A stretch of DNA of 21,761 bases from IMG/VR virus record IMGVR_UViG_3300020160_002649, positions 1-21,761 of that record. One strand, written 5' to 3'. The position numbers were made by a program, and so were the translations under genes. This document shows, one piece after another, positions 16,308-21,671 of the stretch (its first letter is position 1; every line of letters starts with the position of its first letter). The DNA is from a virus. Below the pieces are notes generated by a model that was not told the DNA's origin, searched no databases, and worked only from the letters and a program-made list of their open reading frames with translations.

Positions 16308-16955
16308 TTACCCTTTATTTACGTCGTTTTCAACTCTAGATGCCATTAAATCTGCTTGATGCAAGATATATGGAAGATGTCCTTTTATTTGAGATTCTGG
16401 AGTATGTGTTTTAAGATATGCTTCATTTCCAGGTTCGTACAATCCATCGTGTACTTTTATTGCAATATATTCATTCTCAGTTACTTGTATGCCAGCTTTC
16501 TGAAGATAAAACAGACTACGATCAGCGATTCTCATGTGCTGAATCTCTGGGTTGTATGTGAAATACCTTCCTTGATTCTTCTGATGCCATTCTGAAGTCT
16601 GTGGAATATAAAAAGGCTGATCGTTTGTTCCCAGCTTTCCAAGATCGTGGTTTATTGCGGCAAATACAAGTTCTTCAGTTGTGTGAGTCTTTTCTTGACC
16701 AAATTTATCCCAAACTTTATCAAATACCAGTGCTGCTTCAGTTACTCTGACAACATGCTCAACATATCCGCCTACAAAGCAATTGTGATGATCAAGTTTA
16801 GTAGATGCTGGAGAAGTTAGAAGCGTAACCTCAATACTTTTGTAAAATTTGATAAGCTTTTTAGTTCTTTCATTGTCTGGAAGATACTTTTTAATCAAAT
16901 CATAGAATTTTTCTACATTTTCAATTAGTTGCTGTTCACTTAATTCTTTCATCAT
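16308..16955 (-). CDS. HD-domain phosphohydrolase
   Basis: 215 residues with the HD-superfamily metal-binding pattern: His67 in GGYVEHVVRVTEA, His103-Asp104 in INHDLGKLG, a later His169-Asp170 (KVHDGLY), and Asp202 in LHQADLMASR. These residues would hold one or two divalent metals for phosphomonoester or phosphodiester hydrolysis; the substrate cannot be told from sequence. Possible roles are nucleotide or second-messenger breakdown or nucleotide-pool adjustment. The N-terminal 60 residues are helical. The first ATG overlaps the upstream stop as ATGA, and a second Met follows directly, so the start is uncertain by one codon. It lies with a redox protein and a small membrane protein just ahead of the late sigma factor. 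Confidence 0.85.
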   Translation of the reverse strand: MMKELSEQQLIENVEKFYDLIKKYLPDNERTKKLIKFYKSIEVTLLTSPASTKLDHHNCFVGGYVEHVVRVTEAALVFDKVWDKFGQEKTHTTEELVFAAINHDLGKLGTNDQPFYIPQTSEWHQKNQGRYFTYNPEIQHMRIADRSLFYLQKAGIQVTENEYIAIKVHDGLYEPGNEAYLKTHTPESQIKGHLPYILHQADLMASRVENDVNKG

Positions 16956-17278
16956 ATAGTATTAATTTTTTTAAGGACTTGTTCAGGAGAAAAGAATGAT
17001 ACAGTTCTTACTTTATTGTCTATAATGTTTTCTTTCCCTAATTCATTATAATCAATCCCAGTGAAATAAATATAGTCTAAGTTCTTAGTTAGATCTTTTA
17101 TTATTGCCATAGGATATTTAGAAGATTTAGTCAAATTCTCAAGCTGGTCACACATTCCAGGGTCTTCATCACAAGGTACTTCTACAAATTTTATACTGCT
17201 TTCAGATAAGATCGACTTTAATTTTTCACAAGACGAACATCCTTTTAACGTTGCTATTACTACTTTATATTTCATCAT
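16952..17278 (-). CDS. Thioredoxin/glutaredoxin-like CxxC protein
   Basis: The fold pattern is beta-strand (YKVVIATLKG), the active-site motif CSSC, then a helix, a second strand (IKFVEVPCD) and a probable cis-proline (KYPMAI). With the ATG at 17278 the protein is 108 residues. The next codon is also ATG (17275), so the start is uncertain by one residue; an upstream in-frame TTG at 17287 is less likely. Additional cysteines lie in VPCDEDPGMCDQL. Such phage redoxins often supply electrons to ribonucleotide reductase or reduce host proteins, but no reductase gene is in the window. The start lies inside the 3' end of the 53-residue gene, and the stop overlaps the HD gene start. Confidence 0.82.
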   Translation of the reverse strand: MMKYKVVIATLKGCSSCEKLKSILSESSIKFVEVPCDEDPGMCDQLENLTKSSKYPMAIIKDLTKNLDYIYFTGIDYNELGKENIIDNKVRTVSFFSPEQVLKKINTI

Positions 17279-17426
17279 CTGGGTCAATTTTATTTAAAAT
17301 ATCATACCACGTTGCTCTTTCTTCATCATCCATATTCTGGTACTCTAAATCCAAGTACGCATAAAGTATATCCAGCTCTAAACTAGATAAAAACTTCCTC
17401 TCCTTATAATCCTCTATATTTAGCAT
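17265..17426 (-). CDS. Small acidic protein, 53 aa, first gene of the minus-strand convoy
   Basis: An open frame from ATG at 17426-17424 to TAA at 17267-17265 encodes 53 residues beginning MLNIEDYKERKFLSSLELDI and ending NKIDPDDEI. It is acidic and helical in pattern, with LELDILYAYLDLEYQNMDDE in the middle and no membrane segment. It overlaps the redoxin gene by 14 nt in another frame, as tightly packed phage genes do, and fills what would otherwise be an empty stretch. The codon content and overlap support a real gene, but there is no family recognition. The start lies in the first copy of a 15-nt direct repeat. Confidence 0.6.
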   Translation of the reverse strand: MLNIEDYKERKFLSSLELDILYAYLDLEYQNMDDEERATWYDILNKIDPDDEI

Positions 17427-17583: not shown

Positions 17584-18522
17584 ATGGATAATTCCCAATT
17601 GGTACAAAGTTTATTGGAAATATATTTAGGCAAAGGCAAAAAGCTCGCAAAAGGAGATTATGCCTATTATTGTCCAGTTTGTCAGCATAAGAATCAAAAG
17701 CTTATGGTCAATGTCATATCTGGGGCGTATAATTGCTTTACATGTCACCCTCAAACTAAAGGAAAGACTCCAGTATCACTTCTAAAAAAGATTGGCGCAC
17801 CTACAGAAGCCATACTCGAAATGAAGGGTTACTTTGTTAATGATTCTACTAAAATTGAAGTCGAGAAAGAAAATATCCCGATAATTATACCAAAGGAGTA
17901 CATCAGTCTAGGCGATATTACTGATACAAGCTTAGAAAAAAGACAGGCTCTCGCTTATTTAAAGAGAAGAATGGTTACATCATCTGACATTTTAAAGTAT
18001 AATATCGGGTATTGCAAAACAGGGCGCTATAGGAATAAGGTAGTAGTGCCATCATATGATTCAAGAGGCAGACTTAACTACTTTGTTGCTCGATCATTTG
18101 AAAAAGAACCATTACAGAAAATAGACTCGCCTTCTTGTAATAAATCTGAGATGACTGGGTTTGAATATTACATTAATTGGAATGTCCCAGTAATACTTTG
18201 CGAAGGTGTATTTGACGCAATAGCAATAAAAAGAAATGCAATACCACTATTTGGTAAAACAATATCCAAAGCATTAATGATCAAGCTATTACAACCTCAA
18301 GTCAAGACAATATATTTGGCTCTTGATGATGATGCGATAATGGAATCTATAGATCATGCTCAAAAACTAATAGATTACGGAAAAGAAGTCTATCTTATAC
18401 GATTACAAGGCAAAGACCCTTCAGAAATAGGATTTGAAGGAATGATACAATACTTACATAATGCTCAACCAGTAACGGCTTCGAGCTTATTAATGCTAAA
18501 AATGCAAATGTCCCTATGTTAA
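17584..18522 (+). CDS. gp61: DNA primase, T4 gp61/DnaG type
   Basis: 312 residues (T4 gp61 is 342). The N-terminal zinc finger has CPVC (C30, C33) and CFTC (C51, C54). The TOPRIM core has VILCEGVFDAIAI (E207, D211), YLALDDDA (D248-D250) and GKDPSEIG (276-283), the metal-binding and nucleotide-handling motifs of DnaG-type primases. The middle part (KYNIGYCKTGRYRNKVVVPS, 139-158) is the usual region leading into TOPRIM. It would make RNA primers on the lagging strand with a gp41-type helicase, which is not in the window. It is the first gene of the plus-strand convoy, with a T/A-rich leader and no Shine-Dalgarno sequence. Its last 7 nt overlap the start of the next gene, implying coupled expression of priming and recombination functions. 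Confidence 0.88.
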   Translation: MDNSQLVQSLLEIYLGKGKKLAKGDYAYYCPVCQHKNQKLMVNVISGAYNCFTCHPQTKGKTPVSLLKKIGAPTEAILEMKGYFVNDSTKIEVEKENIPIIIPKEYISLGDITDTSLEKRQALAYLKRRMVTSSDILKYNIGYCKTGRYRNKVVVPSYDSRGRLNYFVARSFEKEPLQKIDSPSCNKSEMTGFEYYINWNVPVILCEGVFDAIAIKRNAIPLFGKTISKALMIKLLQPQVKTIYLALDDDAIMESIDHAQKLIDYGKEVYLIRLQGKDPSEIGFEGMIQYLHNAQPVTASSLLMLKMQMSLC

Positions 18523-21500
18523 AACCTATAAAAATAGAATCAAGCGTAAAGGAAATCAAAAAGATATATCATGTAAGCGATATCCACATTAGGAATTTCA
18601 AAAGACATGATGAGTACAGAAGAGTATTTGATAAGCTTGCTGAGTATATAAATTCTACTAAAACTGAGGAGAGTATTATATGCGTAACTGGAGATATAGT
18701 CCACTCAAAGACAGATATCACACCAGAATTAGTACAAGAGACACAGAACTTTTTAAAGCTGATGTCATCGATACTTCCAACGATTGTAATACCAGGAAAT
18801 CATGATGCAAATCTAAACAATAATCATAGGATGGACAGTTTGACTCCTATAATTAATGCAATGAATGATTCAAATATAACTTACATAAAAGATACTGGTA
18901 TATTTAAAATGGCCAATATCGATTTTGTGCATTGGTCTGTGTTTGATGATCCTAAAAAATACATTAAAGCATCAAAAATAAAATCAGACTATAAGATCTG
19001 CATGTTTCATGGTCCTGTAAATAATTCACTCACTGAAGGTGATTTTTCTCTTACTGGATATCACATGAGTATTGCAGATTTTGATGGTTTTGATCTTGTA
19101 CTTCTTGGAGATATTCATAAAAGGCAGTTTTTAAACGAGGCAAAGACAATCGCATATCCAGGTTCTTTAATTCAACAAAATCATGGCGAAGGTTTAGATC
19201 ACGGGATACTTGTATGGGACGTAGAATCAAAAAGCGCAGAATATGTTCCTATTGAAAATGATACAGCATTCTATACTCTATACGCCGAGAATGGAATTCA
19301 TTTAGATATACCAGAGCATCTTCCAAAGAACTTATATCTGAGATTAAAATCAAAGAATACACCACCAACTCTGATAAAAGAAATCGTAGCAGGGGTAAAA
19401 AAAGACAGAAATGTAATAGAGCTTTCACACCAGACGATAAATAACTTTTCACATCATACTTCACACCAAAGCACAAACGCAATAAATGTGAGAGATGTGA
19501 CTTATCAGAACATTCTCCTATCTCAGTATCTTAAAACAAAATTCAGCCTTCCAGATGATGATATAATTAAGATATGCGAACTCAATAAGACAATAAACCA
19601 TAAAATACCAAGACTAGAGGTTACTAGAAATATTCAATGGAACCCGAAGAGATTAGAATTCTCAAATATGTTTAGTTATGGGCCTGATAATGTCATAGAC
19701 TTTACAAACATGGAAGGAGTCTATGGTATCTTTGCTCAGAATGCGTCTGGTAAAAGCTCTAGCATAGAAGCTCTTGTATACTGTCTATTTGATAAGTGCT
19801 CAAAGACTTCAAAAGCAGGTCTTGTAATGAATAATAAGTCAAGAGAATTCCATTGTAAATTTGAATTTGAACTTGATGGAAAATCATATGTAATCGAAAG
19901 AAAAGCATCGTATAGAGCTAAATCTGAAAGCGTAAAACAAGACGTAAACTTCTATTATATAGACTTTGAAGGTGCGCAGGTATCACTAAATGGAGATGAT
20001 AGATTCGGTACAAATGCAAAGATAAGAGAGATAATCGGTTCATATGAGGACTTTATTCTCACAAGTATGTCAATGCAGAATAATAACACTGGATTTATCG
20101 ATATGGGTCAATCTGATAGAAAAGATCTGCTCTCCCAGTTTCTTGATATAAAAGTGTTTGAAGACTTATACATAGCAGCAAATGAAGAGATCAAAGAGTT
20201 TTCTGTATTGATAAAAGAGTACAAAAAAGTAGATCATTTTGTTAAATTAAAGGAGTTTGAAGAGTACATAAAAACATATTCAAATCAATACCGTCAACTT
20301 GAAAAAGACAAAAAAGATCTTGAAAAATCGATAGAGAAAGAGTCTGTTAAGTATATGAAATTCAGCTCTAAAGTAACCCAGATTGACTCAAAAATACTGG
20401 ATATAGATAGTCTTGAATTAAAAAAAGAATCATTAATATCTCAAAAAATAAAACTAAAAGAGGACATAAAACTCAATAAAGACAACTTGGATATTACAAA
20501 AATAGAGCTCACTACAATTGAAAATGAGGCTCAAAAAATAGATCTGACGAGCTTTAATACGATGAAAAGTGAGCTACAAAAAGATATTGATACAGAGAAA
20601 ACACTATCGATCCAAGTAGAAAAACTGAAGACTCAACTTACGCATAAACTCGAGAAAATGAAAAAACTTGAGGACTTAAAATATGATGAGAACTGTAAAT
20701 TCTGCATGGATAATGTTTTTGTAAAAGACGCTATTGCTACAAGAGACTCAATAGAAGTTGATAAGATTGAGGCTAAATCAGTAGTCGATAACTTAAGAGT
20801 ATTAAGAGAAAATATACAGATTTTAAAGTCGTATGTCAGTGCTCAAGAAAATCTTCAAAGTAGTTTATCAAAAAAGAAAAATGATATAATCAAGCTAGAA
20901 TCAAATATCGATAGGCTAACCCTGGAGCTACATCAGAGGCATGTATCAATAAAAGACGTAGAAGATATCATAAAGCAATATAGAAAGAAAGAGGCTGCCA
21001 TAAAATCAAATCAAGAGATAAGTGATCAACTTAAGATAATTCAAATATCAATTGATTCTTTAAAATCTCAGCTTAAAGATACGGGCGATGATCTTATGAA
21101 ATGCAACACCAATATCCAGCTTACTCAAATGGAAATTGAAACTGCAAAGCAAAGTATCGAGAATCTAAAAGCAGTAGAAGAAAAGTACAAATATTACGAG
21201 TACTATCTATCAGCAACTGGCAGAGATGGTCTTCCCTATGATATTATAAGCTCAGTAATACCAAGAATTCAAGAAGATATCAATAATGTGCTTTCTCAAG
21301 TTGTAGATTTTAAGATCTCAATTGAATCTGATGGCAAGAATATAAATGCCTTTATTGAGTATGATGATGATAGAAAATGGCCAATTGAATTAAGTTCTGG
21401 AATGGAAAAGTTTGTGTCTACTTTGGCAATCAGATCTTCATTGATAAACATAACATCACTTCCAAGACCAAACTTCTTAGCAATAGACGAAGGTTTTGGA

Positions 21501-21671
21501 GCACTAGATCAAAGCAATATGGGTAATATATCAATACTGCTTGACTATCTAAAAACACAGTTTAAATTCATCATAATGATATCTCACATCGACGCTATAA
21601 GAGATATTGTAGATGCTCATATAGAAATCACAAAAGGTAAAGACGGTTTCTCTAAAGTACAACACAAGTAA
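18516..21671 (+). CDS. gp47-gp46: Single-chain Mre11-Rad50 (gp47-gp46 / SbcD-SbcC) fusion
   Basis: An uninterrupted 1051-residue frame joins two subunits normally encoded separately. Residues 1-370 are an Mre11/SbcD-type nuclease: SDIH (D22, H24), GD (D60), GNHD (94-97), HG (165-166), GDIH (198-201), and a helical region at about 325-370 where Rad50 normally binds. Residues 375-1051 are a Rad50/SbcC-type ATPase: FAQNASGKSS (Walker A, 406-415), coiled coils at about 560-720 and 740-890 flanking a CKFC zinc hook (727-730), signature LSSGMEKF (959-966), Walker B FLAIDEGFGALD (987-998), and a switch His (MISH, H1024). T4 gp47 is about 339 aa and gp46 about 560 aa, so both halves are full length. 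In T4 these process DNA ends for recombination-dependent replication. It overlaps the primase gene. Confidence 0.9.
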   Translation: MLKPIKIESSVKEIKKIYHVSDIHIRNFKRHDEYRRVFDKLAEYINSTKTEESIICVTGDIVHSKTDITPELVQETQNFLKLMSSILPTIVIPGNHDANLNNNHRMDSLTPIINAMNDSNITYIKDTGIFKMANIDFVHWSVFDDPKKYIKASKIKSDYKICMFHGPVNNSLTEGDFSLTGYHMSIADFDGFDLVLLGDIHKRQFLNEAKTIAYPGSLIQQNHGEGLDHGILVWDVESKSAEYVPIENDTAFYTLYAENGIHLDIPEHLPKNLYLRLKSKNTPPTLIKEIVAGVKKDRNVIELSHQTINNFSHHTSHQSTNAINVRDVTYQNILLSQYLKTKFSLPDDDIIKICELNKTINHKIPRLEVTRNIQWNPKRLEFSNMFSYGPDNVIDFTNMEGVYGIFAQNASGKSSSIEALVYCLFDKCSKTSKAGLVMNNKSREFHCKFEFELDGKSYVIERKASYRAKSESVKQDVNFYYIDFEGAQVSLNGDDRFGTNAKIREIIGSYEDFILTSMSMQNNNTGFIDMGQSDRKDLLSQFLDIKVFEDLYIAANEEIKEFSVLIKEYKKVDHFVKLKEFEEYIKTYSNQYRQLEKDKKDLEKSIEKESVKYMKFSSKVTQIDSKILDIDSLELKKESLISQKIKLKEDIKLNKDNLDITKIELTTIENEAQKIDLTSFNTMKSELQKDIDTEKTLSIQVEKLKTQLTHKLEKMKKLEDLKYDENCKFCMDNVFVKDAIATRDSIEVDKIEAKSVVDNLRVLRENIQILKSYVSAQENLQSSLSKKKNDIIKLESNIDRLTLELHQRHVSIKDVEDIIKQYRKKEAAIKSNQEISDQLKIIQISIDSLKSQLKDTGDDLMKCNTNIQLTQMEIETAKQSIENLKAVEEKYKYYEYYLSATGRDGLPYDIISSVIPRIQEDINNVLSQVVDFKISIESDGKNINAFIEYDDDRKWPIELSSGMEKFVSTLAIRSSLINITSLPRPNFLAIDEGFGALDQSNMGNISILLDYLKTQFKFIIMISHIDAIRDIVDAHIEITKGKDGFSKVQHK

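Follow-up and report, generated by a model that had tools for sequence, protein, structure and literature searches.

Organization of the locus

The window analysed here, a stretch of 21,761 nt representing the virus record IMGVR_UViG_3300020160_002649, carries a single plus-strand frame of 1051 codons with zero internal stops. Based on sequence homology, this gene encodes a fusion of an Mre11/SbcD nuclease with a Rad50/SbcC ATPase, and the fused frame noticed in the original prediction was confirmed. In the protein, Pfam Metallophos was matched by residues 16-202 (E 2e-13) and AAA_23 by residues 379-606 (E 2e-12), and the SbcD-like PHROG 100 and the SbcC-like PHROG 77 extended over residues 10-339 and 285-1049, respectively. 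These matches, together with the motifs listed in Table 1, bear out the proposal of a whole nuclease followed by a whole Rad50-type ATPase in one polypeptide. The Pfam search of the fusion protein gave no zinc-hook (Rad50_zn_hook) match, though the CxxC apex of the hook that had been claimed is present.

Table 1. Features of the fused gene and of the adjoining primase gene, with positions in the window
Feature	Position	Strand	Basis
DNA primase gene, 312 aa; 7 nt overlap with the start codon of the fused gene	17584..18522	+	Pfam, PHROG
Fused Mre11(SbcD)-Rad50(SbcC) gene, 1051 aa	18516..21671	+	frame, Pfam, PHROG, relatives
Metallophosphoesterase nuclease domain, residues 15-258	18558..19289	+	Pfam, motifs, profile, model, fold match
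GDIHK motif, residues 198-202; Asp for the first His of canonical GHxH	19107..19121	+	motif comparison
Capping domain, residues 259-308	19290..19439	+	model, fold match
Flexible low-confidence stretch, residues 309-326 (pLDDT <50 at 310-321)	19440..19493	+	model
Helix pair, equivalent of the Rad50-binding domain of Mre11, residues 327-361	19494..19598	+	profile match, model
Covalent linker, residues 362-373, length almost invariant	19599..19634	+	alignment
Rad50 ATPase lobe I, residues 374-560; Walker A NASGKSS from residue 409	19635..20195	+	Pfam, motifs, model, fold match
Ascending coiled coil, residues 561-718	20196..20669	+	model
Zinc-hook CKFC (C727, C730), coiled-coil apex	20694..20705	+	motifs, model
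Descending coiled coil, residues 743-890	20742..21185	+	model
Rad50 ATPase lobe II; signature SGME (961-964), Walker B/D-loop AIDEGFGALD (from 989)	21186..21668	+	motifs, profile, model, fold match

T4-type baseplate wedge genes are also encoded in the window, which is therefore considered to come from a myovirus-type phage. Upstream of the primase gene, on the other strand, a glutaredoxin-like protein (16952-17287) adjoins a metal-dependent phosphohydrolase-like protein (16308-16955). At the contig end (21685-21761) lies a gene start, MSVKNIIAIYPGRFQPFSKHHAE, which resembles the beginning of a nucleotidyltransferase (NMNAT-like); a similar gene is located 3' of the fusion in several relatives.

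Predicted structure

In the AlphaFold2 model of the fusion (mean pLDDT 83.9), the nuclease is followed by the cap, the helix pair and the linker, and then by the first ATPase lobe, a coiled coil running out to the hook and back, and the second lobe; the placement of the domains is not certain since the pTM was only 0.45. Using VIA-align, Z scores of 29.2 to E. coli SbcC and 25.0 to S. aureus SbcD were obtained; the SbcD/Mre11 matches (Z 23-25) covered residues 9-311, comprising the calcineurin-like phosphoesterase fold and the cap. PDB profile matches of the fusion were to SbcC, Rad50 and Mre11. The profile alignment with T. maritima Mre11 (379 residues) extends as far as its residue 374, and on this basis the two helices modelled at the junction (328-342 and 347-361) correspond to the Rad50-binding helices described by Yoshida et al. 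The suggestion that the region between the domains is the usual meeting site of Mre11 and Rad50 was thus upheld.

In a viral fold search (BFVD), full-length giant-virus proteins ranked first with 20-26% identity (Tupanvirus, 26%). A 1009-aa protein of Listeria phage LMTA-57 annotated as recombination exonuclease (A0A068CB47) was aligned over 1133 columns in the same database and may be another fusion.

Relatives and integrity of the junction

Scanning of IMG/VR with the fusion protein alone revealed 14 relatives, while a scan with an alignment revealed at least 569, the 80 best of these being retained. Among the related loci examined, 96 in total (85 of them distinct, the remainder being overlapping fetches of the same contigs), the fusion was read as one uninterrupted frame in 90; four loci end at a contig edge, and in the other two a nuclease gene is inserted. 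Full-length fusions carrying the GDIH and SGME motifs were also identified in two isolates, Microcystis phage Mel-JY01 (WWT39521.1, 39% identity) and the far more divergent Tenacibaculum phage pT24 (BAV39141.1, 1310 aa), and as a 1202-aa frame in the 735-kb uncultured phage LR756501. The search for full-length matches over both halves that had been called for was therefore successful. The two isolate proteins are currently labelled only "AAA domain containing protein" and "DNA repair", respectively. A pattern scan of GTDB genomes confirmed no cellular relatives, and plasmid relatives were rejected because the plasmid scan gave weak partial matches alone, to the ATPase half.

As the window consists of a single 21.8-kb virus contig, its long frame could be an artefact, two adjacent genes having been merged through a missed stop or an assembly indel, which had been feared near 19600-19660. 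The chance of this is negligible. The same unbroken fusion occurs in the 90 single-frame loci, in both isolates and in LR756501, and 40 of the 41 aligned proteins share a 15-residue spacing from N361 to W375, the other having 16 residues. In a codon comparison with three relatives, divergence over residues 309-380 was greatest at third codon positions, which indicates that the junction is translated and under selection. The artefact was rejected based upon these observations.

Motifs and metal ligands

Residues D22, H24, D60, H63, N95, H96, D97, H165, D199 and H201 were invariant in 41 aligned sequences, as were the GKS of Walker A, both hook cysteines (C727 and C730), S961, G962 and E964 of the signature, and D991 and E992. 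Walker A, Walker B, D-loop and signature of a bipartite Rad50 ABC head are all present, and the hook cysteines lie between the long helices of the AlphaFold2 model. The full canonical set of seven metal ligands including GHxH is not retained: in 90 of 90 single-frame loci the motif is GDIH, so that six ligands are kept and one His is replaced by Asp (D199). The ATPase signature is SGME, not SGGE, in 89 of these 90 loci. Judged from the sequences, GDIH and SGME are marks of a lineage. The residue of P. furiosus Mre11 equivalent to this Asp is H206; with such a replacement, the nuclease may differ in activity or in its choice of metal.

The unfused SbcD proteins of T4, SIOphi, ACG-2014f and A9 have GH[FY]H, and the unfused SbcC proteins of T4, SIOphi and ACG-2014f have SEGE; SbcC of A9 was unmatched by the pattern. 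When 26 fused and 4 unfused phage sequences were placed in a tree, one branch (100/99) split the fused from the unfused, although the tree carries long-branch warnings (pT24, LR756501) and four unfused pairs are too few for a claim of single origin. Based on the motifs and this branch, the identification of the gene as a fused T4 gp47-gp46 pair fails in the strict sense.

Interrupted copies of the gene

In loci L012 (3983-6852) and L017 (3938-8160), the latter being the 484-kb phage LR756508, the break in the fused gene falls directly behind GDIHK, where each carries a different nuclease gene. The L012 insert, a frame of 103 aa, gave weak matches of Vsr/DUF559 type, the best of which (MTES_1575) was under its cut-off, while that of L017 encodes a protein of 305 aa whose TnsA-like nuclease domain is barely above cut-off. 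The N-terminal pieces of both copies have similar C-terminal tails (alignment score 72; none of 5000 shuffles as high) and their C-terminal pieces likewise start with leaders that resemble each other (score reached by 5 of 5000 shuffles). Neither an RNA element nor a group I intron was detected in the interrupted copies with Rfam at gathering thresholds, and a search with the N-terminal piece of L017 found no more split copies. The arrangement resembles the split nrdA of phage Aeh1, the two pieces of which form a functional enzyme (PMC2988022). GDIHK is possibly a recurrent homing site, with pieces that may reassemble.

Gene context

A primase homolog is located immediately upstream of the fusion in 78 of the 80 loci with enough sequence, and a primase-like gene lies near upstream in Mel-JY01. 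The window phage is represented by its 21.8-kb contig alone; in five larger genomes carrying the fusion (110-190 kb), it was the only strong SbcC/SbcD match with PHROG, and RecA exceeded its Pfam cut-off in all but one. PHROG 100 was below threshold at the fusion in G005, one additional weak PHROG 100 match (E 2e-5) was found in G006, and two weak PHROG 77 matches occurred in other frames of Mel-JY01. Besides its fusion, LR756501 contains two further matches: a second strong SbcC-like one (670999-672753), interrupted by several stops when read with the standard code, and elsewhere a weak SbcD-like one (451881-452144).

Proposed function

The fusion is very probably the covalently joined Mre11-Rad50 (SbcDC) of a large tailed phage, functioning in M2R2-type end resection and tethering for recombination-dependent replication and belonging to the R555-like class. 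Two copies of the fusion would pair via the nuclease dimer and the zinc hook, resulting in an M2R2 assembly from one polypeptide. The helix pair (328-361) would dock at the base of the coiled coil, the short linker tying it to the head, and ATP binding and hydrolysis by the Rad50 head would gate the entry of DNA ends to the nuclease, opening and closing it. Ends at breaks or termini would in this manner be resected and tethered, leaving 3' single strands with which the phage RecA/UvsX would drive recombination-dependent replication and repair.

Ordinary MR complexes are already 1:1 (M2R2). Of the earlier idea that fusion would fix a 1:1 stoichiometry, the ratio itself thus stands, but it is preserved by the fusion rather than newly created. 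The linker has 12 residues, and Yoshida et al. estimated that 9-12 would be required for the distance of approximately 28 Å from the Mre11 C-terminus to the Rad50 N-terminus (PMC3175470). A role of T4 gp46/47 in recombination-dependent replication has been proposed (discussed in PMC3175470).

Two other functions were considered. The replacement of a metal-ligand His by D199 in all 90 single-frame homologs, with the His retained in the unfused phage SbcD proteins tested, could mean that the nuclease is dead or altered and that the enzyme is mainly an ATP-driven DNA tether. This is improbable, since the catalytic His and all remaining metal ligands are invariant, Asp is itself a good metal ligand, and such strict conservation argues for function. 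It is still less probable that the fusion acts in conflict, attacking host or rival-phage DNA, or is kin to a Lamassu-type defence ATPase, instead of serving replication. The PADLOC LmuB profile does match the ATPase half (E 5e-27), and T4 gp46/47 is annotated as needed for host-DNA degradation too; LmuB, however, is a Rad50/SMC-like ATPase, for which a match is expected from the common fold. The adjacent primase in 78 of 80 loci and the position of the fusion as the sole strong SbcCD of the five larger genomes also speak against conflict. The LmuB match was judged to be fold resemblance, and the gene was not assigned as a defence ATPase.

The original prediction was in part supported: the joined nuclease and ATPase stand as an Mre11-Rad50 enzyme probably serving replication, while the fusion itself will be no surprise to specialists. 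What these phages contribute are complete, isolate-backed tailed-phage sequences of this fusion class, which had been assigned to phages mainly by deduction from short metagenome pieces, and a conserved primase gene adjoining the fusion. At approximately 1050 residues, a one-chain M2R2 enzyme could be a convenient single-gene subject for structural work and could serve to test communication between nuclease and ATPase in cis versus trans.

Comparison with known systems

The original prediction named no described example in T4-like phages. Fusions of this kind are, however, already described: Yoshida, Claverie and Ogata reported Mre11/Rad50 fusions in 2011 from Mimivirus (R555), Bacillus phage 0305phi8-36, bacteria (some on plasmids) and eukaryotes (PMC3175470). 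No account of this phage family beyond theirs was found in the literature, and passages of a jumbo-phage survey treat SbcC and SbcD as partner proteins, with no fusion.

Compared with the published description of R555, the window fusion very probably belongs to the R555-like viral class. As in R555, one frame carries the nuclease first and the ATPase second, with cap, helix pair and short linker between them, and an Asp occupies the position of His206 of P. furiosus Mre11 (Asp242 in R555; PMC3175470). R555 homologs are abundant in aquatic metagenomes and viral fractions, some are likely phage-derived, and primases and other phage-like genes occur near some of them on metagenome scaffolds (PMC3175470); both the aquatic viral abundance and the nearby primase are shared by the present family. 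R555 differs in having 1351 aa and a coiled coil of cellular length, whereas the window fusion has 1051 aa and its phage is tailed, with baseplate genes of T4 type. As a tentative reading that we hold to be less likely than not, the phages of aquatic habitats may share with giant viruses of eukaryotes one virus-specific Mre11-Rad50 class with a single fusion origin, marked by the Asp ligand and SGME and coupled in cis by a tether of fixed length, which in some phages would have been re-cut at the metal-binding motif by homing-type endonucleases and would work as two pieces.

Bacillus phage 0305phi8-36 likewise has a phage-borne Mre11/Rad50 fusion, but this reportedly lacks the cap/helix region and one ATPase segment (PMC3175470), while all parts are present in the window fusion. 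T4 gp47/gp46 is similar in domain content and in its likely role in recombination-dependent replication; it differs in being encoded by two separate genes, with GHFH and SEGE in place of the GDIH and SGME of the single gene. E. coli SbcCD and T. maritima Mre11-Rad50 share the folds of both halves (Z 23-29) but consist of two subunits, and T. maritima Mre11 has the canonical GHIH.
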